A model generated the notes under the pieces. It searched no databases and was not told the DNA's origin. It saw nothing but the letters and a program-made list of their open reading frames with translations. A stretch of 64,000 bases of DNA from Arthrobacter sp. MSA 4-2 (GTDB taxonomy: Bacteria; Actinomycetota; Actinomycetes; Actinomycetales; Micrococcaceae): positions 62,001 through 126,000 of the forward strand of contig NZ_JAEKGC010000006.1 in NCBI RefSeq assembly GCF_016405885.1, read 5' to 3'. Numbering within the stretch: position 1 is the first letter of the stretch; each line of letters opens with the position of its first letter. The position numbers and the translations under genes were made by a program. Of the stretch, positions 997-19,836 are shown one piece after another.

Positions 997-3900
997 GTGA
1001 CTTTTGCCTCCCTCAATAGAATCTTGTGCTCCACGGCCCTTTCGATGGCAATCTGCATTGGCGCAGCTCCGCTGACGGCCACAGCACAGACTCAACCCGC
1101 TCCCGTGGCGACTCCTGCCACGGAGGAGCAGATCGCACCGGGCGTTGCTCCGGACCCTGCAGGTGAGGCTCCGACCGGACCTCCGTCGCCCGCGGCCACG
1201 CAGGATCCCGCGGTTCCCTTGGCACCGGCATCCGAGACCCCGGCTCCCGCAGACCCGCAGCCGACCGCGGAAACCACCGCACCTTCAGAGGATGAAGTCA
1301 CGTCATTCGTCCCCGACCTCGACTGGAACCCCCTGCTCGAGCCCGGGGCGAATCCCCGGCTTGGAGAAAACCATCCCGAGCCGCACGAGGCTGCCCAGGA
1401 GCACGGGCAGGAGGAAGGAAAGCTCGGGGCCGCCGCCTTCGGACCCCGCTACGGAAACTTCAAAGTGAAGCTCGTAACGGTGAAGCTAGCGGACAAGACC
1501 CTGGCGGATGTAAACGCAATCAACCTCGACGCCGCGCGGGCTTCAATCGCCGCTGCGGATTCATACTGGCGGTCGGCGTCCATGGGCCGGTTGTCCATCA
1601 CCACCGTTTCCGAAGTGAGGGGATTCGCTTCGAAGGCCAGGCACACCGATTCCTACGACCAGATCATGGCCACCGTAACGAGGGAGCTCAACTGGCAGTA
1701 CAACCCCTATGAAGCGCTGGTCCTCTTCATTCCGCACCGGGACCTGAATTCATATGGAAACTGGGGAATCCTGGGCGGCGGATTCACCGACAGCGCGACA
1801 AGCGGCCGCGTCATCATGCCCTACCCCTCGGCAACGACGAAGAACGTGGTTTCCCACGAATTCGGCCACGTGCTCGGCCTACATCACTCGAATTCCCTGA
1901 ACTGCACCAACGGGCGGGTCGACGTCGCTCGAATTGCGGGAGCGACGTGGGGCGATACTGCGTGCAGGTCCTGGGAATACGGCGACACCCTCGACATCAT
2001 GGGCTTCGCCCAGCTGCATACCCCAATGATCAACTCGTTCATGTACGAATTCGGCGGCTTTGGCCGCGGAGATGAAATAAGGAATGCCGGCATCGCGAGC
2101 GGGTCGAAACAGTACACCCTGAAGCCGTGGGCCGGGGGCGAAGCGCAACGGGCGGTCAAATTCACCGATCCAGGCAGCGGCGAGGTCTACTACATCGAAC
2201 TGCGCCTGCCCGTCGGCCGGGACGCCAACAGCGCCATCGGCGGCAACCGCGGAGTCAAGATCATTAAGAAGGACCACCTTGGGTGGAACGGCAATGCCTC
2301 GGTGGTGCTGACCCCCAACAGCAGGTGGGTCGGCTACTACAACGAAAACCACGCGTGGCAGGCCGGGTCCGTCTTCACGACGCACCGGGGCACCCGCGTG
2401 CACATCAATTCGATCGGAGCGACCAGCGCCTCCATCACCATCACCGCGCTGACTTCCACGGTGGCTCCTGCTCCTGCGCCGGTGGTGCTGGATAAAACCC
2501 TGGCGGCGGTCAATGCCGGGGATTTCAACCGTAACGGCACCCATGACCTGGTCTCCCGGCGCCCGGATGGGACCCTGTGGTTCCATGACGGCACCGGCAC
2601 CGGTTCGTTCCGGGCCCCGGTGAAGATCGGCTCGGGGTGGGGCATCTACAGCCAGCTCATCGGCGGCCAGGACTTCAACGCGGACGGACGCCCTGACCTG
2701 GTCGGACGCAAGACCGACGGCACGCTGTGGTTCTACGCCGGCACCGGGGTGGTCACGGCCACCGCCGAGGGCTATCGGGGCCCGGTCAAGAGCGGTGTGG
2801 GGTGGAACGCCTTTGACATCATGGTCTCCCCCGGGGACTTCACCGGGGACCGCCGCCCCGACCTGATCGCCCGCAAACCCGACGGCACCCTCTGGCTCTA
2901 CCGGGGCACCGGCATCAGCCCGGACATCGTGAACGGGGCGGTGCGCATCGGCACCGGCGGCTGGACGGGCTTCAACCTGCTCTCCGGCGCCGGGGACTAC
3001 ACCGGCGACGGACGCGCGGACCTGCTCGCCCGCAAACCCGACGGCGCCCTCTGGCTCTACCAGGGCACCGGAAACGTCAGCGCCACCAGCACCGGATACC
3101 TGCCCGGACGGGCCATCGCCACCGGCTGGGCCGGCTACTCCGACATCGTCGGAGCCAGCGACTTCAACCGCGACGGCAAGACCGACCTCGTGGGCTTCAG
3201 GGCCGACATGAGCCTGTGGTTCTTCGCCGGCACCGCCATGAAGGACAACGGCTACCGCCCCGGCACCCGGATCGGCTCCACCGGCTGGCAGAACTACAAC
3301 ACCATCGTGGGTCCCGGAGACTTCAACGCCAACGGCACCAAGGACCTCATCGCCCGCCGCAAGGACGGAACCCTGTGGTTCTACAACGGCACCGGCAGGG
3401 GCGCCTACGGCACGCCCATCCGGATCGGCAGCGCCGGCTGGAACACCTTCACCGACATCCTGGCCCCCGGAGACCTCAACGGCGACCGCCGCCCCGACCT
3501 GCTGGCCCGCCACCAGGACGGCTCGCTCTGGTTCTACGCCGGCACCGGAACCGTCAACACCACCAGCGAAGGCTACAAACCGGGCCAGAAAATCGGCCAG
3601 GGCGGATGGCAGGCCTTCTCCCAGCTGATGGCCCCCGGGGACTACAACAGCGACGGCAGGCCCGACCTGCTCGGACGCAAAACCGACGGGACCCTCTGGT
3701 TCTGGGCCGGCACCGGCACCATCAGCGCCACCAGCGAAGGCTACGGCAGCGCGGTCCAGATCGGACGCGGCGGCTGGCAGGGCTTCAACCACGTCATCAC
3801 CCCCGGAGACTTCACCGGCGACAAACGCAACGACCTGCTCGCCCGCAAACCCGACGGCACCCTCTGGCTCTACGCCGGCACCGGAGCCGCCTCACCCACC

Positions 3901-4098
3901 CAGGAAGGCTACAAACCCGCCGTCCCGATCGGCACCGGCTGGAACAACGCCACCACCATCACCGGTCCCGGCGACTTCAACGGCGACACCAAGGCCGACC
4001 TCCTGACCACCCGCGCCGACGGCTCCCTCTGGTTCTACGCCGGCACCCACGGAACCAACGCCGGCTACAACCCCGCAAAACCCGCCGGAAAACTCTAA
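997..4098 (+). CDS. Secreted zinc metalloprotease (metzincin, M11/M12-like) with ten FG-GAP/VCBS repeats
   Basis: The GTG start is preceded by CTGGAGAA. A signal peptide covers about residues 1-31, followed by a Pro/Ala/Glu-rich linker to ~105. The catalytic domain has the extended zinc motif HExxHxxGxxH (His287, Glu288, His291, His297) and a Met-turn at Met335 in a DIMG context, typical of metzincins; the spacing looks most like gametolysin-type (M11) or reprolysin-like enzymes. From ~500 to the end are ten repeats of the form D-[FYL]-N/T-x-[DN]-x-x-x-D-L followed by DG-[ST/A]-LW, which match calcium-binding FG-GAP/VCBS beta-propeller blades. The repeat region is duplicated in the next gene. 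The upstream 208 bp are AT-richer and contain a TTGACA at 839-844, but no good -10 is paired with it. Predicted role: extracellular proteolysis; substrate unknown. Confidence 0.88.
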   Translation: MTFASLNRILCSTALSMAICIGAAPLTATAQTQPAPVATPATEEQIAPGVAPDPAGEAPTGPPSPAATQDPAVPLAPASETPAPADPQPTAETTAPSEDEVTSFVPDLDWNPLLEPGANPRLGENHPEPHEAAQEHGQEEGKLGAAAFGPRYGNFKVKLVTVKLADKTLADVNAINLDAARASIAAADSYWRSASMGRLSITTVSEVRGFASKARHTDSYDQIMATVTRELNWQYNPYEALVLFIPHRDLNSYGNWGILGGGFTDSATSGRVIMPYPSATTKNVVSHEFGHVLGLHHSNSLNCTNGRVDVARIAGATWGDTACRSWEYGDTLDIMGFAQLHTPMINSFMYEFGGFGRGDEIRNAGIASGSKQYTLKPWAGGEAQRAVKFTDPGSGEVYYIELRLPVGRDANSAIGGNRGVKIIKKDHLGWNGNASVVLTPNSRWVGYYNENHAWQAGSVFTTHRGTRVHINSIGATSASITITALTSTVAPAPAPVVLDKTLAAVNAGDFNRNGTHDLVSRRPDGTLWFHDGTGTGSFRAPVKIGSGWGIYSQLIGGQDFNADGRPDLVGRKTDGTLWFYAGTGVVTATAEGYRGPVKSGVGWNAFDIMVSPGDFTGDRRPDLIARKPDGTLWLYRGTGISPDIVNGAVRIGTGGWTGFNLLSGAGDYTGDGRADLLARKPDGALWLYQGTGNVSATSTGYLPGRAIATGWAGYSDIVGASDFNRDGKTDLVGFRADMSLWFFAGTAMKDNGYRPGTRIGSTGWQNYNTIVGPGDFNANGTKDLIARRKDGTLWFYNGTGRGAYGTPIRIGSAGWNTFTDILAPGDLNGDRRPDLLARHQDGSLWFYAGTGTVNTTSEGYKPGQKIGQGGWQAFSQLMAPGDYNSDGRPDLLGRKTDGTLWFWAGTGTISATSEGYGSAVQIGRGGWQGFNHVITPGDFTGDKRNDLLARKPDGTLWLYAGTGAASPTQEGYKPAVPIGTGWNNATTITGPGDFNGDTKADLLTTRADGSLWFYAGTHGTNAGYNPAKPAGKL
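2464..4098 (+). repeat. Direct repeat copy 1 (FG-GAP module)
   Basis: First copy of a ~1635-bp direct repeat; the second is 5458-7092 (offset 2994 bp). It starts inside the Ala-Pro linker before the first blade and runs through the TAA stop. The base after the stop differs (C versus A), then about a dozen bases match again. I found no differences between the copies by eye, and three different reading frames translate identically across them. Confidence 0.93.
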
Positions 4099-4197
4099 CC
4101 CCACCCCCCACATACCCTCGACCGGCCCTGGGTCCTCCTCCACCTGGCGCAGACCACGGGTCCCGGTCGAGGACCTGCGCAACCTGGAGAATGCCCT

Positions 4198-7092
4198 GTG
4201 AAACTGAACCGTCCGGCCAGCGTGCTGGCCGCCTCCCTCCTCACCGCAGCACTGGTGGGAGGGACGACCCCCGCACTGGGCCTCGTCCTTCCCGAGGCGG
4301 AACCACAGGCGACGACATCTCCCGAACCGGCACCGGCCGACGGCACAGCGCCGGCGGCGCCCGCGGTCCCGCAGGAAAGCTCCACCACACCCGCTCCCTC
4401 TTCCCCGTCCGAAGGCCCAACCGCTCCCACCCAGCCTGCGCCTCAGACGCCGGGCCCCGACGAAACCTCCGGCGGGACTGACGGAGCGCCCACCGACGCC
4501 GCGGAAATGTCCCCCGAGGAACTGGCCCGGAACGCGTCCGCCCTTGCGGACCTCATCGGCCCCCTTGGAGCAAGTCTGGGCCAGGGAGTCGAACGCATCG
4601 CAGAGACCGGAGACCCCCAGGTACCCACCGACGAGGAGCTCACCCAGATTGCACAGGAGGAGCGGTCGACCTCCGGTAATGAGGCCACGCCGGGCGCGGT
4701 CCAGGCCGTTCCCGAAGCCGACCAGGCGGGGGCCATGAACCGGTCCACGGACACCGACTTCCCGATGGCAAGGACCGCCTTCCAGCCCCTGGTGAACTAC
4801 TGGAAACCCGCAGGAATCCTCGGGGTGGATGTGAGCAGCCACCAGGGCAACGTCGACTGGGCGGCCGCCTGGCGTCAGGGCTCCCGGTTCGCCTACACGA
4901 AGGCGACCGAGGCACTCGTCTACAAGAACCCCTATTTCGCCTCCCAGTACAAAGGGGCGGAAGTGTCGGGGATGGACCGGGGTGCCTACCACTTCGCCAT
5001 TCCGAACGTCTCGAGCGGTGCCGCGCAGGCTGATTACTTCATCCGCAACGGTGGAGGATGGTCCGCGGACGGAAAAACCCTGCCTCCGCTCCTGGATGTC
5101 GAGTACAACCCGTACCCGGAGCTCGGCAACACCTGCTACAACATGAGTCCGGCCCAGATGGTCAACTGGATCCGTGACTTCTCGAACACGATGTTGAGCC
5201 GTACCGGGCGCCTGCCGATGATCTACACCACCGCCGACTGGTGGAACCGCTGCACCGGATACAGCACCGCCTTTGCCAACCACCCCCTCCATGTCGCCTC
5301 CTACAACAACTGCTGCACCGGTCCCCTTCCGGCCGGGTGGCGGGTGGAGAGCCTGTGGCAGTACACCAGCGACGGACCAGTTGTCGGCGACTGGAACCGG
5401 TGGAACGGGACGGCGGCAGCCTTCGACCGGTTCGTCCGGGGCGGCTATACCGCCCCTGCTCCTGCTCCTGCGCCGGTGGTGCTGGATAAAACCCTGGCGG
5501 CGGTCAATGCCGGGGATTTCAACCGTAACGGCACCCATGACCTGGTCTCCCGGCGCCCGGATGGGACCCTGTGGTTCCATGACGGCACCGGCACCGGTTC
5601 GTTCCGGGCCCCGGTGAAGATCGGCTCGGGGTGGGGCATCTACAGCCAGCTCATCGGCGGCCAGGACTTCAACGCGGACGGACGCCCTGACCTGGTCGGA
5701 CGCAAGACCGACGGCACGCTGTGGTTCTACGCCGGCACCGGGGTGGTCACGGCCACCGCCGAGGGCTATCGGGGCCCGGTCAAGAGCGGTGTGGGGTGGA
5801 ACGCCTTTGACATCATGGTCTCCCCCGGGGACTTCACCGGGGACCGCCGCCCCGACCTGATCGCCCGCAAACCCGACGGCACCCTCTGGCTCTACCGGGG
5901 CACCGGCATCAGCCCGGACATCGTGAACGGGGCGGTGCGCATCGGCACCGGCGGCTGGACGGGCTTCAACCTGCTCTCCGGCGCCGGGGACTACACCGGC
6001 GACGGACGCGCGGACCTGCTCGCCCGCAAACCCGACGGCGCCCTCTGGCTCTACCAGGGCACCGGAAACGTCAGCGCCACCAGCACCGGATACCTGCCCG
6101 GACGGGCCATCGCCACCGGCTGGGCCGGCTACTCCGACATCGTCGGAGCCAGCGACTTCAACCGCGACGGCAAGACCGACCTCGTGGGCTTCAGGGCCGA
6201 CATGAGCCTGTGGTTCTTCGCCGGCACCGCCATGAAGGACAACGGCTACCGCCCCGGCACCCGGATCGGCTCCACCGGCTGGCAGAACTACAACACCATC
6301 GTGGGTCCCGGAGACTTCAACGCCAACGGCACCAAGGACCTCATCGCCCGCCGCAAGGACGGAACCCTGTGGTTCTACAACGGCACCGGCAGGGGCGCCT
6401 ACGGCACGCCCATCCGGATCGGCAGCGCCGGCTGGAACACCTTCACCGACATCCTGGCCCCCGGAGACCTCAACGGCGACCGCCGCCCCGACCTGCTGGC
6501 CCGCCACCAGGACGGCTCGCTCTGGTTCTACGCCGGCACCGGAACCGTCAACACCACCAGCGAAGGCTACAAACCGGGCCAGAAAATCGGCCAGGGCGGA
6601 TGGCAGGCCTTCTCCCAGCTGATGGCCCCCGGGGACTACAACAGCGACGGCAGGCCCGACCTGCTCGGACGCAAAACCGACGGGACCCTCTGGTTCTGGG
6701 CCGGCACCGGCACCATCAGCGCCACCAGCGAAGGCTACGGCAGCGCGGTCCAGATCGGACGCGGCGGCTGGCAGGGCTTCAACCACGTCATCACCCCCGG
6801 AGACTTCACCGGCGACAAACGCAACGACCTGCTCGCCCGCAAACCCGACGGCACCCTCTGGCTCTACGCCGGCACCGGAGCCGCCTCACCCACCCAGGAA
6901 GGCTACAAACCCGCCGTCCCGATCGGCACCGGCTGGAACAACGCCACCACCATCACCGGTCCCGGCGACTTCAACGGCGACACCAAGGCCGACCTCCTGA
7001 CCACCCGCGCCGACGGCTCCCTCTGGTTCTACGCCGGCACCCACGGAACCAACGCCGGCTACAACCCCGCAAAACCCGCCGGAAAACTCTAA
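4198..7092 (+). CDS. Secreted GH25 muramidase (lysozyme) with ten FG-GAP/VCBS repeats
   Basis: The GTG start follows CTGGAGAATGCCCT. Residues 1-~30 are a signal peptide, then a Pro/Thr-rich stretch to ~100 and a partly helical region to ~205. Residues ~206-418 are a glycoside hydrolase family 25 domain: GVDVSSHQG with Asp211, and the catalytic D-x-E pair Asp300/Glu302 in LLDVEY. GH25 enzymes cleave the MurNAc-GlcNAc bond of peptidoglycan. Residues ~422-964 are the FG-GAP/VCBS module identical to that of the upstream metalloprotease. The 99-bp gap to that gene may allow co-transcription. Likely job: remodelling or lysis of cell wall outside the membrane, with the propeller acting as a wall- or glycan-binding or calcium-stabilised scaffold (inference). 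Confidence 0.93.
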   Translation: MKLNRPASVLAASLLTAALVGGTTPALGLVLPEAEPQATTSPEPAPADGTAPAAPAVPQESSTTPAPSSPSEGPTAPTQPAPQTPGPDETSGGTDGAPTDAAEMSPEELARNASALADLIGPLGASLGQGVERIAETGDPQVPTDEELTQIAQEERSTSGNEATPGAVQAVPEADQAGAMNRSTDTDFPMARTAFQPLVNYWKPAGILGVDVSSHQGNVDWAAAWRQGSRFAYTKATEALVYKNPYFASQYKGAEVSGMDRGAYHFAIPNVSSGAAQADYFIRNGGGWSADGKTLPPLLDVEYNPYPELGNTCYNMSPAQMVNWIRDFSNTMLSRTGRLPMIYTTADWWNRCTGYSTAFANHPLHVASYNNCCTGPLPAGWRVESLWQYTSDGPVVGDWNRWNGTAAAFDRFVRGGYTAPAPAPAPVVLDKTLAAVNAGDFNRNGTHDLVSRRPDGTLWFHDGTGTGSFRAPVKIGSGWGIYSQLIGGQDFNADGRPDLVGRKTDGTLWFYAGTGVVTATAEGYRGPVKSGVGWNAFDIMVSPGDFTGDRRPDLIARKPDGTLWLYRGTGISPDIVNGAVRIGTGGWTGFNLLSGAGDYTGDGRADLLARKPDGALWLYQGTGNVSATSTGYLPGRAIATGWAGYSDIVGASDFNRDGKTDLVGFRADMSLWFFAGTAMKDNGYRPGTRIGSTGWQNYNTIVGPGDFNANGTKDLIARRKDGTLWFYNGTGRGAYGTPIRIGSAGWNTFTDILAPGDLNGDRRPDLLARHQDGSLWFYAGTGTVNTTSEGYKPGQKIGQGGWQAFSQLMAPGDYNSDGRPDLLGRKTDGTLWFWAGTGTISATSEGYGSAVQIGRGGWQGFNHVITPGDFTGDKRNDLLARKPDGTLWLYAGTGAASPTQEGYKPAVPIGTGWNNATTITGPGDFNGDTKADLLTTRADGSLWFYAGTHGTNAGYNPAKPAGKL
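5458..7092 (+). repeat. Direct repeat copy 2 (FG-GAP module)
   Basis: Second copy of the direct repeat found at 2464-4098. The join lies in a CCT-GCT-rich Ala-Pro linker, which is one Ala-Pro unit longer here, so the linker itself is a plausible recombination point. There are no transposase genes or terminal inverted repeats around the block. Confidence 0.93.
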
Positions 7093-7161
7093 ACCCACCC
7101 CCCACCGGTCCCCTGCTCCCCCGAAAGGACGATCGCTGCTTCGAGTATTGTGAGATGCAGA

Positions 7162-8949
7162 ATGAATAATCTCCTCAAAACCCTCCGGCCACTCCTCGCT
7201 ACGCTGCCCCCGGGGAGCCGCCGGTTCCTCATTGGCTACGGCATAGCTACGGCCTGCCTCTCACTGCTGGACATCATCTCCCTGGGACTCATCGCCGTCC
7301 TGCTCCCGTCCCTCGTGAGCGGGGCGGACGTACAGCTGCCGTTCCTCGGGAACGTGAGTGAGCAGAGCCAGCTGCTCACGCTCCTGGGAATCGCCTGCGC
7401 GCTGGTCGTTGCCAAGGGTGTCTTCGCAGTGATGATCCTTCGGTCGGCGACGGCGCGGTTCGCCAAGCATGAAGTCGCCATTGGTGACCGGCTCCTGGCC
7501 TCCTACCTCTCGTCGCCGTGGGAGCAGCGCCTTCAGAAGAACTCGAGCGAGCTGGTCCGGTCCGTCGACGTCGGCGTCGGCCTGTCGGTCTCGGGGGTGC
7601 TGATTCCCTCCATGACACTGTTCGGCGAGCTCGGGACCCTCCTCGCCGTCGGAGTGGTGCTGGTGGTGGCACAACCGCTCATCGCCGTCGTCAGCATCCT
7701 CTACCTCGGGCTCGTCGCCCTGCTGCTCGCCCGGGTCATCTCCCCGCTTTCGGTCCGGATGGGCCAGGAGAACCTCAAGTGGTCGGCCAAGACGGTGAAG
7801 ATCCTCACCGAAGCACTCGCGGCGCTGAAGGAGATCACCCTCGCCGACCGGGCCTCCGAAGTGCGCGCCCAGGTCCACGAAACCCGTAGCCACAGCTCGG
7901 TGGCCCGGGCGAACTCGGTCTTCCTGGCCCAGGTTCCCCGCTACGTGCTTGAATCCGCACTGATTGTCGGTTTCCTCCTGGTTGGAGGGGTCGGTTTTGC
8001 CACGGGCGGCGCCGAGGGTGCCGTCAGCGCTATCGGCCTGTTCGCCGTCGCCGGTTTCAGGCTTGTCCCGTCGCTGACCCGGCTGCAGGCGGTCCAGTCA
8101 CAGGTGAACTCAAATTCGGCCTTTGCGCAGCAGGTCGCCACAGACATCCGTGAAAGCGAGCAGCTGCTCGCGGAAAGCGCACAGGAGAATCCGCAGCAGG
8201 ACCTCAATGGGGAACGCGTCGACATCGTGCTGCGCGATGTCAGTTTCACCTACCCCGGCGCGGCCCAGCCCGCCCTGCGCGGCGTCAACGCGACCATCCC
8301 CGCAGGCAGCCACGTCGCCTTTGTCGGCTCGTCCGGTGCGGGCAAGTCGACCATCATCGATATCCTCCTCGGCCTCCTCCGTCCCACCTCCGGTCACGTG
8401 GAAGTGGACTCGGAGCGCATGGACCGGGTCCTGACCTCGTGGCGGAAACGGATCGGATATGTTCCCCAGGACGTCTCCCTGTTCGACGCATCGGTCGGCC
8501 AGAACGTCGCCCTGTCCTGGGACCCGGCGAACGTCGATCACGCCAAGGTTGAGGCGGCCCTGCGGCGGGCCCAGATGTACGACGTGGTGATGAACCGGGA
8601 GGGCGGACGGGACGCCCTGATCGCCGAGCGCGGGCTCGCCCTCTCCGGCGGACAGCGCCAACGGCTGGGCATCGCCAGGGCGCTCTACAACGAACCCGAC
8701 GTGCTCGTGATGGATGAGGCAACCAGCGCCCTCGATACGGCAACGGAGTCCGCGGTGACCACCGCGATCCGGGAGCTCCACGGCGAAGTCACCGTCATCA
8801 CGGTCGCCCACCGGCTTTCGACGATCCGCTCGGCGGACATCGTCTTCTTCATGCAGGATGGGCGGATCGTCGCGCAGGGCACCTTTGACGAGGTCGTGGC
8901 CGCGGTTCCGGACTTCGCACGTCAGGCGCAGCTCGCGGGTTTGAGCTAG
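7162..8949 (+). CDS. ABC transporter, fused permease-ATPase (MsbA/PglK-type flippase)
   Basis: A half-transporter of ~595 residues: about six membrane helices in residues ~20-310, then an ATPase with Walker A GSSGAGKS (~389), signature LSGGQ (~494) and Walker B VLVMDEATSALD (~513-524). I chose ATG 7162; GTG 7150 in the same frame would add four residues and neither has a strong ribosome site. This architecture is shared by lipid A, lipid-linked oligosaccharide and peptide exporters. At the edge of a polysaccharide locus, flipping of a lipid-linked glycan is the simplest inference. It is 69 bp after the muramidase and convergent with the next gene. Confidence 0.87.
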   Translation: MNNLLKTLRPLLATLPPGSRRFLIGYGIATACLSLLDIISLGLIAVLLPSLVSGADVQLPFLGNVSEQSQLLTLLGIACALVVAKGVFAVMILRSATARFAKHEVAIGDRLLASYLSSPWEQRLQKNSSELVRSVDVGVGLSVSGVLIPSMTLFGELGTLLAVGVVLVVAQPLIAVVSILYLGLVALLLARVISPLSVRMGQENLKWSAKTVKILTEALAALKEITLADRASEVRAQVHETRSHSSVARANSVFLAQVPRYVLESALIVGFLLVGGVGFATGGAEGAVSAIGLFAVAGFRLVPSLTRLQAVQSQVNSNSAFAQQVATDIRESEQLLAESAQENPQQDLNGERVDIVLRDVSFTYPGAAQPALRGVNATIPAGSHVAFVGSSGAGKSTIIDILLGLLRPTSGHVEVDSERMDRVLTSWRKRIGYVPQDVSLFDASVGQNVALSWDPANVDHAKVEAALRRAQMYDVVMNREGGRDALIAERGLALSGGQRQRLGIARALYNEPDVLVMDEATSALDTATESAVTTAIRELHGEVTVITVAHRLSTIRSADIVFFMQDGRIVAQGTFDEVVAAVPDFARQAQLAGLS

Positions 8950-8974
8950 GGGCCGGGACCGCGCCCGCTCCCCT

Positions 8975-9008
8975 GCGGGCCTGCCCGCCTGCGCTTCCGC
9001 CTGCGGAA
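8975..9008. terminator. Tandem short hairpins between convergent genes
   Basis: Two perfect inverted repeats with the same CT loop lie side by side: GCGGGC/GCCCGC (8975-8988) and TTCCGC/GCGGAA (8995-9008). A third, GCGTCC/GGACGC, is at 9062-9075. They sit in the 137-bp gap between converging genes and could end both transcripts, although no T-run follows. Confidence 0.4.
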
Positions 9009-9086
9009 TCCGCCGGGGGGACCGTCCGGGGCGCGGGCGTGCTCGACAGGGCCTAAACGCGGCGTCCCCGGACGCGGTTGGAGCCG

Positions 9087-10142
9087 CTACAGGGAGGCGG
9101 CAGCGTAGATCTCGCGAAGACGCTTCACGGCCGCTGCCGGGTCGTGGTGCTCGGCTATCCACTTCCGGCCCCCGGCTCCGCGCCGGCGCAGGGTTTCCTC
9201 ATCCGCCAGATCCGCGGCGATGAGCTTTGCCATGGCCGCCGGCGAATCCACGTCCTCGTGGCCCACCGGGATGTCCTCCGGATAGAAGCCCGGCGTCAAC
9301 GAAATGTAGAGCGGCACTCCCAGGGCCATCGCCTCCAGCTCGCTCGCTGCAAGGATGCCGGCGGCCTGCCCGACCGCGGCAGTGGATGCGTTCACGAAGT
9401 CGAGGTAGTCGCGGTGGCTCATCCTGGGAACAAGGTGGACCCCGGCCTTTTCCGCGTCGGCGGCCATCGGACCCCAGTCGAGTCCGTAGACATCGAACGC
9501 GCCGCCGCTTACCTGCACGAGCTGACGCGCAGTCTCCAGCTGGCCCGCCGCGTTCTTCGAGTCGTCCCAGCGGGAGACAAAAAACACCCGCGGCCTGCCC
9601 TGCGGGCGGGGAACCGGCGAAGGCAGCTTGGAAAGGTCGATCGAGACCGGCAGGTACTCGGCATCGGGCCGGTGCGGCAGGATGTGCTCGCGCAGGTCTG
9701 GGGTTGTGTACATCACCGCGGCCGCGTTGCGTACGCCCCGGAGAATTGTCTCCCTCCACCGCTCGTCGTACTGGAGGGTGCGGATGTCGGTGCCGTGCAG
9801 CGTGAGCACGTACTTCTTCGGGACGAACCTGGAGTGTTGGGTGACGCCGCCGGAGTGGATGTGAAGCAGGTCGGAGGAAACGGCCCGGCGCGCGAGGCCG
9901 AGGAGCCACGCCCCGCCCTGGGCTGCATACCGGGCTCGGCCCTTGACCCCCGTCAGCGGGTAGTCGGCGACGGCCCGCGGGTAGAAGCTCCAGGGCAGTT
10001 CCTGTTCGGAGGCCTTCGCGAGGATGCGCTCGGCGTAGAAGGCGCAGTCGTTGACGTGGACGACCTTCACCGCGGACAGATCCTGCCCCGCCGCCGGCTC
10101 CACCGGCTTAGTACCGTCCACTCGGGGCATCCTTTTCGTCAT
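9087..10142 (-). CDS. Glycosyltransferase, GT4-like (GT-B fold)
   Basis: 351 residues; the ATG at 10142 is preceded by GGGAGAAG and overlaps the end of the DUF2304 gene by 35 bp. The N-terminal half starts with the beta-strand VKVVHVNDC; the C-terminal half has the donor-binding Rossmann half with FFVSRWDDSKN and an E-rich segment (LAASELEAMALGVPLYIS) typical of retaining GT4 enzymes. It is the last gene of a GT2-DUF2304-GT4 minus-strand cluster. Sugar and acceptor cannot be read from sequence. Predicted cytosolic, membrane-associated assembly of surface glycan. Confidence 0.78.
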   Translation of the reverse strand: MTKRMPRVDGTKPVEPAAGQDLSAVKVVHVNDCAFYAERILAKASEQELPWSFYPRAVADYPLTGVKGRARYAAQGGAWLLGLARRAVSSDLLHIHSGGVTQHSRFVPKKYVLTLHGTDIRTLQYDERWRETILRGVRNAAAVMYTTPDLREHILPHRPDAEYLPVSIDLSKLPSPVPRPQGRPRVFFVSRWDDSKNAAGQLETARQLVQVSGGAFDVYGLDWGPMAADAEKAGVHLVPRMSHRDYLDFVNASTAAVGQAAGILAASELEAMALGVPLYISLTPGFYPEDIPVGHEDVDSPAAMAKLIAADLADEETLRRRGAGGRKWIAEHHDPAAAVKRLREIYAAASL

Positions 10143-10485
10143 TCTTCTCCCAAGGCCGCTCGGCCTCGTCCAGCGCGATGCGCCGCGAGAGCTTCGTCAG
10201 GGTGGTCTCCATGGAACGGAAGCGCTGGTGCGTCGTCGACATGTACACCAGGAAGGAGACGATCAGTGCGTAGAGCACCAGGTCCGTGCCGCGGCCTACC
10301 CCGACGATCCGTGCGAACTGCGTGAGGATCGTGGGGAAGAAGATGGACAGCACTGCGGCGACCGCGAAGAGGAGGATCATGATCCGGCGGATGGCCATGT
10401 GCTTGGCGTTTGAACCCCCGCGGATGAGCACGAGGGAGAAGCCCACGACGACGAGAACCAGGACAAGCTGAACCACAATTAGCAT
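10108..10485 (-). CDS. DUF2304 family small membrane protein
   Basis: 125 residues. Helices at about residues 3-22, 35-58 and 68-88 are followed by a charged cytosolic tail. DUF2304 proteins are usually encoded beside GT2 polyprenyl-phosphate glycosyltransferases and are thought to be their membrane partners; here the gene starts 5 bp after the GT2 stop, fitting that pattern. The 35-bp overlap with the downstream GT4 suggests translational coupling. The function of DUF2304 is not established. Confidence 0.8.
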   Translation of the reverse strand: MLIVVQLVLVLVVVGFSLVLIRGGSNAKHMAIRRIMILLFAVAAVLSIFFPTILTQFARIVGVGRGTDLVLYALIVSFLVYMSTTHQRFRSMETTLTKLSRRIALDEAERPWEKNDEKDAPSGRY

Positions 10486-10490
10486 TTGAA

Positions 10491-11156
10491 TTACCTAAAG
10501 AGCAGGTCCGCCACAATATTGACGGAGTTGAGGAGGGATTGCCCCTTGGATTTTGAATAGTCCGTGTAAATAATTTCGACAGGGTGCTCGGTCCACCGTG
10601 GGCGCATCGCGGAAATCATTTGAACCAATTCGGAGGCGTGCGCCATGCGGTTCTGGGTGATGTGGATGTTCTGGGCCACGCCGCGGTTGAAGGCCCGCAG
10701 ACCGTTGTGCGCATCCGTGAGGGGCATACCCGTGCTCCACCGCGTTTGAAGCGCCGCTGTCCGAAGCACCAGCCTCTTCAGCGCCCCGATCTGGGTGCGG
10801 CCATCAAGGAACCGGGATCCCAGAACGACGTCGGCTTCTCCGCTTTCGATGCGCTGCACCATGTCGGCGGCGTCGGAGACCCGATGCTGGCCGTCGGCGT
10901 CGAAGGTCACGACGCTCGTCATATCCGGATCCTGGAGGGCATACTCCAGGCCGGTCTGCAGGGCGGCCCCCTGTCCCAGGTTTACCGGGTGGTTCACCAC
11001 GACGGCTCCGGCGGCCCGGGCGGCGTCGGCCGAGGCATCGGTGCTGCCGTCGTTCACGCAGACGACGTGCGGGAACACCGGAAGCAGATCTTCGATTACT
11101 GAGCCGATGATGGAGGCCTCGTTGAACAGCGGGATCACAATCCAGGTACGACTCAC
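10491..11156 (-). CDS. GT2 glycosyltransferase (polyprenyl-phosphate sugar synthase-like)
   Basis: 221 residues with the GT-A start IPLFNEASIIGSVI, the VNDGSTDAS loop, and the metal-binding DADGQH motif, as in dolichyl-phosphate mannose/glucose synthases. It lacks C-terminal membrane helices, which the adjacent DUF2304 protein may supply. Its GTG start (11156) has no Shine-Dalgarno sequence; instead TGC-GATACT lies exactly six bases upstream, so the mRNA is probably leaderless. Confidence 0.85.
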   Translation of the reverse strand: MSRTWIVIPLFNEASIIGSVIEDLLPVFPHVVCVNDGSTDASADAARAAGAVVVNHPVNLGQGAALQTGLEYALQDPDMTSVVTFDADGQHRVSDAADMVQRIESGEADVVLGSRFLDGRTQIGALKRLVLRTAALQTRWSTGMPLTDAHNGLRAFNRGVAQNIHITQNRMAHASELVQMISAMRPRWTEHPVEIIYTDYSKSKGQSLLNSVNIVADLLFR

Positions 11157-11168
11157 AAGCCCAGTATC
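11157..11168 (-). promoter_or_regulatory. Extended -10 element for a leaderless GT2 transcript
   Basis: On the minus strand TGC-GATACT ends six bases before the GTG start codon at 11156. The hexamer matches TATACT in five of six places and carries the upstream TGn of extended -10 promoters. This spacing would place the first transcribed base at the start codon. Confidence 0.45.
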
Positions 11169-11506
11169 GCATAAGGGCTCCGCGGAGACACATCGACAGC
11201 CGGCCGGAGGGTCGGCCGCGAAGTGCGGCCAAGAAGGCGGAATTCATTGTCGAATTCGTCCTCGTTGACCATTGGACGGTGGCCGCCCGGGAATTGTGCA
11301 TTTCCATTTTTGGGCCCGCCGGCTCCGGATCGGCGCACAGCATGGGTGGCTCACAAGGGCCGGGGAAATAACCCCGACGGCATCCGGAACTGAACCGTCC
11401 GGGCCGCGCGGCGGGCGCCCTCCACCACCACCCACCGGCCAGGGCTCGGGGAAAGATCGGAGGCTCCTAGCGGGTCCGCGGTACCTGCCCGTGATACCGT
11501 CGACAG

Positions 11507-11527
11507 GTTCGCCGGAGCCCGGCGAAC
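11507..11527. promoter_or_regulatory. Perfect 9-bp-arm inverted repeat upstream of DUF6541 gene
   Basis: Arms GTTCGCCGG and CCGGCGAAC are separated by AGC. The element lies 57 bp before the start codon, so it is either an operator or a hairpin in the mRNA leader. It is followed by CATCTTTCTCT, only weakly terminator-like. Confidence 0.5.
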
Positions 11528-11583
11528 CATCTTTCTCTGCCCGCGCAGATCAGCGCGGCCGCACCTTAGCCGCAGGAGTGTAA

Positions 11584-13545
11584 ATGTCCTGGTGGGACTC
11601 CCTCCCGACCATCGCCGCAGCGATCGCTCTGCTTACCTTGCCGGGCCTGGCGCTGTCAGCGGCGCTCAACGTGCGCGGTCCGCTGTCGATCGGTCTTGCA
11701 CCGGCCTTCTCGGTGGCCCTGTCCGGAGTGTCCGCCGTGGTGCTGTCGTTGCTTGGCATCGGCTGGTCGCTGGGCAGCTTCCTTGTGGCCTGCCTGGTTT
11801 TCCTGGCCGCGGCAGTTCTCGTGAAGCGCTTTGTGTTCCAGTCCGGGTGGGCTGAATTCTCCTTCCGGATCGACCGGGCCACGGCGCTCGGGGGGGCGGT
11901 CGGGTTGGTCCTGGGCGGCATCGCCGCCTCGTACAACCTGGTCCGGGTCTTCGACCACCCAGACAATATTGCCCAGCGCTATGACAATGTGTACCACCTG
12001 AACGCCGTGCGATGGGTGCTCGAGCAGGGGGACGCGTCGACGCTGACGCTCGGCCGGATGCTCAACCCGACAGCGGAAATCGCCATCTATCCGGCCGCGT
12101 GGCATGGCTTTGCCGCCCTCGTCGCCGACGTTGCGGGGCAGCCCGTGCCTGTCGCTGCCAATGGTCTCAACCTGGTCGTGGCTTCGGTGCTGTGGCCCAT
12201 CGGCGTCATGCTGTTGGCCCGGGTGGTTTTCGGTCCTCGGATGGCGCTGATTGCGATCGCAGGCCTGTTCTCGGCGGGATTCCCCGCCTTCCCGCTGGGA
12301 CTCATCGACTTTGGTCCGCTCTATCCCAACCTCCTCTCCTACTCGGTGCTGCCGGCCGCGCTTGCCCTGGCGATGATGGTGCTGAGGATCCGCCCCCGCT
12401 CGGGCACGCAGTATGGCGTGGTTGTACTGGCCTTCCTTGCCTCCCTAGCGGCGCTGGCGCTCGCCCAGCCGAATGGCTTCACTGCGTTGTTGGCGCTGAC
12501 CCTGCCGATCGCCGTCTTCGCCTGGTGGAGGTGGACGGCAGCCCGGATCACGCGGCGCAGCGTCCGCGGGGCCCTTCTGCCCCTCTTCATCGCCGCCGGC
12601 TTCATAGCCGCGTTCGTGTACGTCTGGCAGGCGCTGCTCATCGGCTACAACACCTGGCTTCCTTTCACCCGGTATGCGAGTGCCATCGGACAGGCCGTCA
12701 CGAGCGCTCCCCACAACCGGAGCATTCCGATCGTCATCGCGGTCTGCACCGTAGCCGGGTTGGCGCGCCTCAGCAGAAGACGGTCCCTGTTCTGGCTGCT
12801 GGCGGTCTATGCGGTGGCTGTGGCGCTCTACGTCGTCTCCGCCGCGGAGCCCCGGGGCCCCCTGCGGATCCTGGCCACCGGCAGCTGGTACCAGGACCCG
12901 CAGCGCCTCGCCGCGCTTCTTCCGCTTCCCACCGTGCTGGTGGCGGCATTCGGCGCAAGCTGGATCCTCGCCTGGCTGTGGAGGAGCCTCCTGTGGTTCC
13001 CGCGGACGCCGTCCGCCGCCCAGAAGGTGGTGGTGGGCGCTGTGGTTGCGGTGGTGGCGGTCCTGGGAGGACTGCAGAGCCAGCGCGGCGCGATCGACGA
13101 GTTCGTGCTTGAAGCCCGAAGCCACCACACCTTCGAGGGAAACCCCACCATCCTGTCACTCGATGAACTGGCGCTGCTCGAACGGGTTGACGAAACGGTC
13201 CCTGAGGACGCCGTCATCGCCGTCAATCCGTGGAACGGCGGATCCCTTGCCTACGCGATCAGCGGCCGCAGTGTGACCCAGTACCATATGAGCCCCGGCG
13301 CGCTGCGCCCGGACCTCGCCGTCCTGGCGGAGGAACTCGACGACGCGGCAGCCGGCACGGAGGCCTGCACCATTGCCCGTGAGGAACGCGTGGAGTACGT
13401 GCTGGACTTCGGCGACTTCTACCTCCTCGACCGAGAAGAGGCCTATCTCTACCCCGCCTTCGACGACGCGGCCGGCGCCGCCAACCTCGAACTCGTCGAC
13501 AGCGAGGGCGACGCCCGGCTATACCGGGTGGCGAACTGCTCCTAG
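11584..13545 (+). CDS. Polytopic membrane protein, DUF6541-like (GT-C-like)
   Basis: 653 residues; the ATG has GCAGGAG upstream. At least ten hydrophobic helices fill residues 1-~490, with a loop at ~115-165 containing DNIAQRYDNVYH that is probably extracellular. A ~140-residue C-terminal soluble domain begins with a Glu-rich stretch. The plan (many helices, acidic first loop, C-terminal exterior domain) is that of GT-C membrane glycosyltransferases and of DUF6541 proteins found in actinobacterial surface-glycan loci. The activity is unknown. The gene is monocistronic, between a divergent GT cluster and a strong bidirectional terminator. Confidence 0.7.
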   Translation: MSWWDSLPTIAAAIALLTLPGLALSAALNVRGPLSIGLAPAFSVALSGVSAVVLSLLGIGWSLGSFLVACLVFLAAAVLVKRFVFQSGWAEFSFRIDRATALGGAVGLVLGGIAASYNLVRVFDHPDNIAQRYDNVYHLNAVRWVLEQGDASTLTLGRMLNPTAEIAIYPAAWHGFAALVADVAGQPVPVAANGLNLVVASVLWPIGVMLLARVVFGPRMALIAIAGLFSAGFPAFPLGLIDFGPLYPNLLSYSVLPAALALAMMVLRIRPRSGTQYGVVVLAFLASLAALALAQPNGFTALLALTLPIAVFAWWRWTAARITRRSVRGALLPLFIAAGFIAAFVYVWQALLIGYNTWLPFTRYASAIGQAVTSAPHNRSIPIVIAVCTVAGLARLSRRRSLFWLLAVYAVAVALYVVSAAEPRGPLRILATGSWYQDPQRLAALLPLPTVLVAAFGASWILAWLWRSLLWFPRTPSAAQKVVVGAVVAVVAVLGGLQSQRGAIDEFVLEARSHHTFEGNPTILSLDELALLERVDETVPEDAVIAVNPWNGGSLAYAISGRSVTQYHMSPGALRPDLAVLAEELDDAAAGTEACTIAREERVEYVLDFGDFYLLDREEAYLYPAFDDAAGAANLELVDSEGDARLYRVANCS

Positions 13546-13587
13546 CCCGTGCGGTGCCGCCGCCCGGTCCCCGATCGCATCGGGCGT

Positions 13588-13636
13588 GGAAACAAAGAAT
13601 GCGGAGGCCGCAGCGGCCTCCGCATTCTTTGTTTCC
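13588..13636. terminator. Strong bidirectional terminator with 23-bp perfect arms
   Basis: Arms at 13588-13610 and 13614-13636 are exact reverse complements around a CAG loop. Each stem has a GC-rich tip and an AAACAAAG/CTTTGTTT base, giving a U-rich 3' edge on both strands. It sits between the convergent DUF6541 and wzt genes and should end both transcripts. Confidence 0.9.
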
Positions 13637-13659
13637 GGGGTGGAACGCCGGCGTGAATT

Positions 13660-14388
13660 TCAGCTGGCGCGGATGTGGGCGATCGCGTCTCCCACTTCGC
13701 CGTCCATGACAACCCGGCCGCGCTCGAGGACGATCCCGCGGTCGCAGACCTTGCTCACCATGTCGAGATCGTGGCTGACCACGACGAGCGTCTTCCCGGC
13801 CTCGTTCAGCTCCTTGATCTTCGCCAGGCACTTCTTCTGGAACGGCTCATCGCCCACCGCGAGGATCTCGTCGATGAGGAAGATGTCCGGGTTGGTGTGC
13901 ACGGCCACGGCGAATGCCAGGCGCAGGTACATGCCCGAGGAGTAGAAGCGGACCTCGGTGTCGATGAACTCGCCGATCTCCGAGAACTCGACAATCGAAT
14001 CGAACTGTTCCCGGATCTCTTTTTCGCTCATCCCGAGGATCGAGCCGTTGAGAAAGACGTTGTCCCTCCCGCTCAGATCCGGGTGGAACCCGGCGCCCAC
14101 CTCAATGAGGCCGGCCACCCTGCCCCGGGTTCGAACGCTGCCGGAATCGGGCAGCATGACGCCCGAGATGTGCTTGAGCAGGGTTGATTTGCCCGAGCCG
14201 TTGAAGCCGAGGAGGGCGACGGTCTCGCCCTCCTCCACAGTGAAGGAAACCCCTTCGAGGGCGGAGAACTTCTTATAGAGATCGCCCCGCCTGCCCTTGA
14301 GCAGCCACAGGAAGGTCTCCTTCATGGAGCGCGTATGGCGCAGCACGAACCGTTTCTCGATGCTCTTGATGTCGATCGATATGGGCAT
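13660..14388 (-). CDS. wzt: Polysaccharide ABC exporter ATPase (Wzt/RfbE-type)
   Basis: 242 residues with Walker A GFNGSGKS (61-68), signature YSSGM (149-153), Walker B IFLIDE (169-174) and the H-loop VVSHD. It belongs to the TagH/RfbE branch of ATPases that energise glycan export, in the short form without a C-terminal carbohydrate-binding domain. In mycobacteria the homologous ATPase (Rv3781) works with the Wzm permease to export lipid-linked galactan. It starts 3 bp after the wzm stop and is the last gene of glf-glfT2-wzm-wzt. Confidence 0.93.
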   Translation of the reverse strand: MPISIDIKSIEKRFVLRHTRSMKETFLWLLKGRRGDLYKKFSALEGVSFTVEEGETVALLGFNGSGKSTLLKHISGVMLPDSGSVRTRGRVAGLIEVGAGFHPDLSGRDNVFLNGSILGMSEKEIREQFDSIVEFSEIGEFIDTEVRFYSSGMYLRLAFAVAVHTNPDIFLIDEILAVGDEPFQKKCLAKIKELNEAGKTLVVVSHDLDMVSKVCDRGIVLERGRVVMDGEVGDAIAHIRAS

Positions 14389-14391
14389 TGT

Positions 14392-15287
14392 CTACAACTC
14401 CTGGGCGAAGCGGCCCTCGAGCCGGCGGAAAAGAAGCTGCCCGAGGACGAGCGTGACGATGGAGAGCGCCAGGGCGATCGGGACCCAGAGCGACAGGAAG
14501 GAGGGCGGCAGCGCCTGCGTCTGGTCGGCGGTCGGCATCCAGAACGCGTAGTGGAAGGTCTCTACTCCGACGGTCAGCGGATTGAGCAGATAGATGTTCA
14601 GGGCGGTCTGACCCAGCTGGTCCCGCACCGTGGTCCAGGCGTAGAGCACCGGCGATGCCCAGGTCGCCACCATCAGCAGCAGGTCCACGAGGTTCTCGGC
14701 GTCCCGAAAATAGACGTTGACGGCACCGAAGATCAGGCCGAGACCCGTGGCCATCAGCGCCACAATGATAAACCCGACCACGGCGGCTGCAAGCTGCAGG
14801 ACGGACGGCGTCCACCCGGCGAACAGGCACGCCACGATCAGGATGATGATCTGCGGGAGGAAATGGATGGCGGACACCCAGATGGCGGACACCGGGAACA
14901 GCTCGCGCGGCAGGTAGATCTTCTTGATCAGTCCGCCGTTGAGAACGATCGACCTCGACGCATTGCCAAGTGCTTCCGAGAAGAAGTTGACGAGCACGAT
15001 CCCGGAAAAGAGGTAGATGGCGTAGTTCGGCAGCCCTCCGGGGTTGCGTGCGCTCTGCTCGAGGCCGAGGAAGATGCCCAGCGCGATGTAGAAGACGATG
15101 AACTGCACGCCCGGTTTGACGTAGGACCACAGCAGACCGATGACGGAGCCGCGGTAGCGGACCTTGATCTCCTTATCGACGAGCAGCTTCAGGAGGAACC
15201 TGCTGCTGATGACGTCCCGGAGTCCGGCACCGTGCCCGGGCGAGACCAGGCCGACGGTGCCGTCATCCGGCGTAGAGACTTTCGTCT

Positions 15288-15291
<4 letters not shown>
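14392..15291 (-). CDS. wzm: Polysaccharide ABC exporter permease (Wzm-type)
   Basis: 299 residues, about six membrane helices and the ABC-2 pattern LLVDKEIKVRYRGSVIGLLW near the N terminus. A much longer frame exists, but the GTG at 15291 is right: it overlaps the glfT2 stop as GTGA and has GGAGGG nine bases upstream. It forms the transmembrane path for a lipid-linked polysaccharide with Wzt. Its place directly after a galactofuranosyltransferase implies a galactofuranan as cargo, as for Rv3783 in mycobacteria. Confidence 0.93.

Positions 15292-19836
<4,545 letters not shown>

Follow-up and report, generated by a model that had tools for sequence, protein, structure and literature searches.

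The mtrA-1 and mtrA-2 genes of methanogens lie next to each other and, as described in PMC4632066, have had one domain homogenised by gene conversion over the long term; the MtrA domain of this pair is the closest known case to the locus considered here. Among whole genes and operons, conversion between the rRNA genes of E. coli was reported to exceed mutation by at least two orders of magnitude, with 8.6e-6 conversions per recipient-donor pair and generation for the rRNA operons compared to about 1e-10 substitutions per base, and a much lower rate, 2e-8, was quoted for tuf in Salmonella (PMC8022953). From the E. coli rRNA rates, it follows that ordinary recombination can be fast enough for such homogenisation. 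Long-lasting concerted evolution was reported for 26 genes in a survey of prokaryotes, and 22 of these belong to stable complexes (PMC6053082).

Here, we analysed a window (the whole 64,000-nucleotide stretch of DNA under study, from Arthrobacter sp. MSA 4-2) in which two neighbouring genes for unrelated secreted enzymes end in the same 1.6-kb module. Judged by comparison of related genomes, the two copies are very probably one module that is kept identical through repeated gene conversion, and the pattern is one of domain-restricted concerted evolution. Literature searches, which covered few subscription titles, found no description of a protease and a GH25 enzyme that have a homogenised tail in common.

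Two enzyme genes ending in one module

A base-by-base comparison of the two tails (Table 1) found 1635 of 1635 bases to be identical. Both copies are in frame through to the stop codon, beyond which the match runs on for 13 bases with a single mismatch (4099 C, 7093 A) and then ends. The upstream end of the repeat falls in an Ala-Pro linker, and in each of the five 20-base steps adjoining it on either side, 2–7 of the 20 bases match. The identity extends to silent sites (pS 0 over 410 synonymous sites), which are beyond the reach of selection on the protein, and the DNA itself must therefore have been copied. The sequence-only reading had described a perfect 1.6-kb direct repeat, matching at third codon positions and preceded by unrelated catalytic domains, and all of this was borne out: the N-terminal parts of the two genes matched different Pfam families, metzincin-type (below cut-offs) for the first and GH25 (above cut-off) for the second.

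Table 1. Features of the locus, numbered from the first letter of the window.
Feature	Position	Strand	Evidence or remark
Secreted metzincin-like protease gene with C-terminal FG-GAP module	997..4098	+	ORF, 1033 aa from GTG
Protease catalytic region used for comparisons	1432..2460	+	Relatives in 35/38 genus genomes, E ≤ 0.001
Codons of HEFGHVLGLHH	1855-1887		Placed by eye
FG-GAP β-propeller module, copy A, C-terminal	2464..4098	+	1635/1635 bases equal to copy B; FG-GAP_3, 9 stretches
3′ margin of copy A, past the stop codon	4099..4111	+	One mismatch
Secreted GH25 muramidase gene (predicted) with the same C-terminal module	4198..7092	+	ORF, 964 aa from GTG
GH25 catalytic domain, residues 210-397	4825..5388	+	Pfam PF01183, 164.9 bits, cut-off 27
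FG-GAP β-propeller module, copy B, C-terminal	5458..7092	+	Base identity to copy A; Pfam
3′ margin of copy B	7093..7105	+	Repeat-limit comparison
ABC-type exporter gene, downstream (context)	7150..8949	+	ABC_tran
GlfT2-like galactofuranosyltransferase, neighbouring surface-polysaccharide cluster (context)	15288..17315	-	GlfT2 domains

The second gene is a clear predicted GH25 muramidase (Glyco_hydro_25, E=3.2e-48 in Pfam). The translation of the first contains the HExxHxxGxxH motif; all Pfam and NCBIfam protease profiles, among them Reprolysin, M43 and M10, scored below their cut-offs in the window protease, and M43 was above cut-off in a relative, G037. In the window tails, the Pfam profiles FG-GAP_3 and FG-GAP were both above cut-off, FG-GAP_3 with 149 bits against 26.9 in nine stretches. 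An AF2 model of the propeller consisted mostly of strands (pLDDT 79, pTM 0.51) and did not settle the number of blades. A sequence search of the PDB gave one relative at E ≤ 0.01, the secreted esterase 8w20.

Besides the two strong copies of the module, the window genome contains two weak relatives with 46% and 32% protein identity. The former is part of an open reading frame (L082:3082-4689) that lies about 10 kb ahead of the window; over 273 residues it resembles the module, and one TGA is present within the matched frame. Downstream of the pair, the region 7150-17315 resembles a surface-polysaccharide cluster, with an ABC exporter, glycosyltransferases, DUF2304, DUF6541, an ABC-2 transporter pair and the GlfT2-like galactofuranosyltransferase.

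The position of the tail is occupied by SLH domains, which are known wall anchors, in both genes of G037, and by LGFP repeats in other relatives. LGFP repeats have been described in cell-surface proteins (PMC2447325), and VCBS-like propellers are, according to PMC9218822, typically tied to carbohydrate recognition, and also to protein-protein interactions. By analogy with these domains, and given the carbohydrate link of the VCBS-like propellers, we regard the FG-GAP propeller as a putative wall-polysaccharide anchor.

The adjacent pair in related genomes

In a sample of 38 genomes of the genus (including G000, the window's own), GH25 relatives were found in 25 at E ≤ 0.001, and the protease and GH25 genes lie side by side in 13, again counting the window's own. 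In 10 of these 13, the two tails are 99.5–100% identical over 1439–1648 bp. In G019, they are 94.9% identical over 827 bp, with 42 mismatches and pN as high as pS, a pattern that may be assembly noise, and in the remaining two (G003 and G007) the genes are adjacent but carry unrelated tails. A genome from another genus, G234, has the pair adjacent in reversed gene order, with the last ≈800 bp of the tails 100% identical. When the 38 genomes were searched with the DNA of the window module, the two neighbouring copies in each of G009, G001 and G034 scored practically equally, at 83%, 78% and 70% identity, respectively (short pieces only for G034).

Of the 11 sharing genomes, nine (the window's own among them) had a within-genome tail pS of 0–0.01. 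The other two were G019, at 0.057, and G025, at 0.23; in the latter, the codon alignment is upset by a disrupted reading frame, although the DNA repeat is still 99.5% identical. Between genomes, pS was 0.14–0.50 for the tails and 0.31–0.70 for the catalytic domains, and tail DNA identity was 57–92% in 16 genome pairs of the same tail type (6 FG-GAP and 10 LGFP, with G025 and G032 left out). Tails within a genome were closer to each other than to their counterparts in other genomes, the hallmark of concerted evolution, and in trees built on the 3′-terminal 1380 or 800 bases of the tails the copies paired by genome in four of four FG-GAP and five of five LGFP genomes. Pooled over nine genomes (leaving out G003, G007, G019, G025 and G234), there were 7 mismatches in 13,808 bp, 5 of them no more than 25 bp from a repeat edge and possibly due to chance extension of the match.

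The repeat has sharp limits in the nine genomes in which they were compared, with 2–9 matches in 20 in the adjoining 20-base steps (one upstream flank, in G022, is N, there being 100 N just upstream of copy A). It starts directly after the catalytic domain in all nine, in agreement with the earlier suggestion that the linker serves as the fusion point. Homogenisation is confined to this one domain and the rest of both genes is divergent, as in the mtrA pair.

The shared tail is of the FG-GAP type in G000, G001, G009 and G034 and of the LGFP type in G004, G005, G006, G022, G025 and G019; that of G032 matched no family above cut-off. (Types were assigned by Pfam on one or both genes in G000, G004, G022, G032, G034 and G019, by motif counts in the remainder, and, where contigs were broken, by eye from the first 27–327 residues.) On the protease-domain tree, there were at least four changes between FG-GAP and LGFP. 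Between species, the choice among unrelated tail types varies at one locus.

Two further observations concern the interior of the tails. Compared to G009, the window module is a mosaic: after the first 100 bases, identity is about 90% up to approximately base 800 and about 77% beyond, and both copies are alike in this respect. The unclassified tail of G032 (L108:3586-5024) has an internal repeat of ≈795 bp with 97.6% identity, and homogenisation or duplication is therefore active inside the tail as well.

Several of the relatives' assemblies are drafts. Of the 24 protease genes in the clade with the adjacent pair, 13 are complete, that of G033 is shortened, and the other 10 are cut off within the tail where their contig runs out; in G016, the assembled protease tail finishes with 327 bases identical to those that open the GH25 tail on a different contig. 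Contig ends inside the tail are as expected for collapsed identical repeats. Seven of the 10 genomes with a protease contig broken in the tail (G010, G011, G014, G017, G018, G020 and G026) had no GH25 match, G016 and G021 had only GH25 fragments of 35 and 51 residues, and G023 had a match only elsewhere, by family profile (the profile search did not include G021). Assemblies can lose such genes, and real loss of GH25 is indistinguishable from a dropped small contig.

Recombination between the copies had been predicted to delete the muramidase gene. The metagenome-assembled G033 fits this prediction: at L078:7944-8612, the start of the module is fused to its end and runs straight into the downstream region, the flanks are 93–95% identical to the window, and no GH25 match was found in this genome. 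This may be a deletion by recombination between the copies, or an assembly collapse, which would look the same. In G008, the GH25 gene (L118:4007-5368) begins with a protease-like signal peptide, which scored 113 against the protease signal of G003 and 54 against the GH25 signal of the window, and no protease match was found. Perhaps a deletion has fused both genes at their 5′ ends.

Origin and upkeep of the shared tail

Where the two genes lie apart, the tails had diverged in all 17 genomes examined (pS 0.525–0.707). This set comprised 8 genomes of the genus and 9 from other genera, the latter mostly single-contig and chosen from the 70 of 295 that had a protease match. Both genes were on one contig in 13, with ≈300 kb or more between them, and on different contigs in four (G012, G024, G027 and G035); G036, G016 and G021 were left out of the comparison because one tail was cut by a contig end. 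Both genes carried the same tail type, by motif counts, in 9 of the 17. Recombination rates between cassettes in Salmonella were reported not to correlate with distance (PMC8262849), so distance alone should not explain the divergence of the separated genes. Nor is proximity alone sufficient, since six other adjacent paralogue pairs (L157, L159, L190, L191, L192 and L193), picked from search matches rather than by a survey, were only 73–79% identical, over 2.2–2.6 kb in five and 774 bp in one. (These were two proteases in G166, two GH25 genes in G074, and FG-GAP pairs in G031 (two), G012 and G030.) Selection for matched tails gains in likelihood from this. However, old paralogue pairs that had diverged past the reach of recombination would give the same picture as selection, and linkage is confounded with phylogeny, as the arrangement may have a single origin in the genus and another in G234.

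GC-biased conversion was considered and rejected. At fourfold sites, the GC difference between tail and catalytic domain was +2.5 points in 24 sharing genes from 12 genomes (with G019, G025 and G234 included) versus −0.8 in 40 others, some of them cut by contig ends, and the shift was inconsistent, with single genomes going both ways (G034 strongly negative).

Similarity of the protease domain tracked that of rpoB across the 13 genomes (rho 0.72, p 0.0004), whereas that of the GH25 domain did not (rho 0.05, p 0.38), and the two domains were uncorrelated with each other (rho 0.06, p 0.35). Among 21 pairs of genomes with the same tail type, which come from 10 genomes and are not independent, tail similarity followed the GH25 domain (rho 0.87, p 0.002) and rpoB (rho 0.49, p 0.014), and was not clearly related to the protease domain (rho 0.30, p 0.16). 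The correlation with rpoB indicates that descent contributes. A Mantel test of tail against GH25 over all 13 genomes was weak (rho 0.27, p 0.03), because differing tail types were given one fixed value. In one pair, G000 and G009, rpoB is 98.7% alike and the protease domain only 66%.

All 20 genomes searched had a GlfT2-like gene in the neighbourhood of GH25, even those with the protease at another place; the distance, worked out by hand, was no more than ≈24 kb in 19 of them and ≈40 kb in the last. GH25 therefore seems to be an old resident of the surface-polysaccharide locus, and the protease gene a newcomer. We also considered whether tail type co-varies with the polysaccharide genes. Tail type is not reflected in the identity of GlfT2 to its counterpart in the window; G009 has an FG-GAP tail like the window, yet its GlfT2-like protein is only 49% identical to the window's, so the idea of a matching wall ligand gains nothing.

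Given that the protease tracks rpoB, that GH25 does not, and that the tail tracks GH25, it is probably the muramidase gene, in the variable wall-polysaccharide locus, with which a new tail usually arrives, the tail of the protease then being overwritten by conversion. The module would be recopied by homologous recombination between the direct repeats, which lie 2.5–3.0 kb apart, presumably through the RecA pathway. The tail may fix the two enzymes to the cell wall of the species that makes them. Selection in favour of a common anchor, which we infer because the other adjacent paralogue pairs are not homogenised, would keep the pair matched. More tentatively, and with some doubt on our part, the locus could be viewed as a coordinated re-targeting device, in which GH25 would gain a wall-binding tail horizontally, conversion would rewrite the tail of the protease, and selection for a common address, rather than proximity, would keep the two identical.

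The sequence-only reading left open whether the module had been copied very recently or was maintained by gene conversion; of these, conversion was favoured and a one-off recent copy was not, considering that the tails are near-identical in 10 of 13 genomes and differ between species. Perfect identity in a single genome does look like a recent copy, and a recent duplication onto the second gene could have happened independently in each species. We consider this improbable. The two host genes are neighbours and have long been diverging across the genus, each of the 10 genomes would need its own recent copy at the same linker, and a copy that is overwritten time and again is in effect undergoing gene conversion. 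An artefact, in which scaffolding or gap filling doubled a single real copy, might be suspected of the window genome, a draft of 35 contigs, the more so as many relatives' contigs break in the module. However, the same arrangement is present at 99.5–100% identity in five relatives with assemblies of 1–8 contigs (G004, G005, G006, G025 and G032), four of which have a few differences between the copies, so that an assembly artefact is unlikely, and indeed very much so. Equally far-fetched, in our estimate, is a dedicated mobile or site-specific cassette (phage, plasmid, integron-like or shufflon) that spreads the module. It would account for the variation in tail type at a fixed linker, and a cassette moving across many enzymes had been envisaged from the sequence, an idea that did not survive: the window genome has just the two strong copies, no phage record matched the module, no plasmid record searched with the GH25 protein had one place covering 80% of the query, and no shared end motif was seen by eye at the boundaries compared.

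Horizontal transfer of the whole locus, in which module, GH25 and module are swapped as one piece, is a far more serious contender, to which we give nearly even chances, and it is compatible with conversion. It would give both genes a common tail type with no need for copying between them, it agrees with the joint similarity of GH25 and tail, and it would fit the comparison of G032 with G022, which are 84% alike until five bases before the module and have no match beyond. The switches in tail type are accounted for in this way, yet the near-absence of differences between the two copies in 10 of 13 genomes is not, and the donors would need homogenised copies too. Exchange of the whole block followed by homogenisation, and arrival led by GH25, are not separated by the present data.

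Comparison with known systems

If the conversion reading is correct, two unrelated enzymes share one evolving domain, and their accessory domains are switched on both genes together. This would provide a natural series for testing whether selection maintains gene conversion, and the locus would offer a route to finding matched wall-binding modules.

FG-GAP/VCBS β-propellers, as treated in PMC9218822, belong to the same repeat superfamily as the module; that work concerns amplification of blades inside one propeller, whereas here whole propellers are copied between enzymes. In the tpsA/tpsC cassettes of Neisseria meningitidis (PMC3848433), 3′-end domains are likewise exchanged between neighbouring copies, but the exchange described there is rare, draws on partial cassettes and alters one protein, while here two full genes are kept alike. 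The giant4 and giant5 genes of Apilactobacillus kunkeei are neighbouring, co-diverged genes for extracellular proteins with homogenising recombination (PMC12863079). The tracts reported for them run across both genes and make the strains resemble each other, whereas the likeness at the present locus is that of one module in two unrelated genes of one genome.

Like tuf, the rRNA operons and other prokaryotic genes evolving in concert, the tails are near-identical within a genome through homologous recombination (PMC6053082, PMC8262849, PMC8022953). Those cases, as described, are mostly whole genes or operons, unlike the 1.5-kb island in two non-homologous genes found here. The likeness to mtrA-1 and mtrA-2 is closer, in that the genes are adjacent, only one domain is homogenised and the remainder differs. 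However, the mtrA genes are described as descended from one gene, whereas the host enzymes here are unrelated, and the homogenised part is a C-terminal accessory module, the type of which varies between species in both genes together. It is this combination, of unrelated host enzymes with a module type that changes on both genes together, that is new here.
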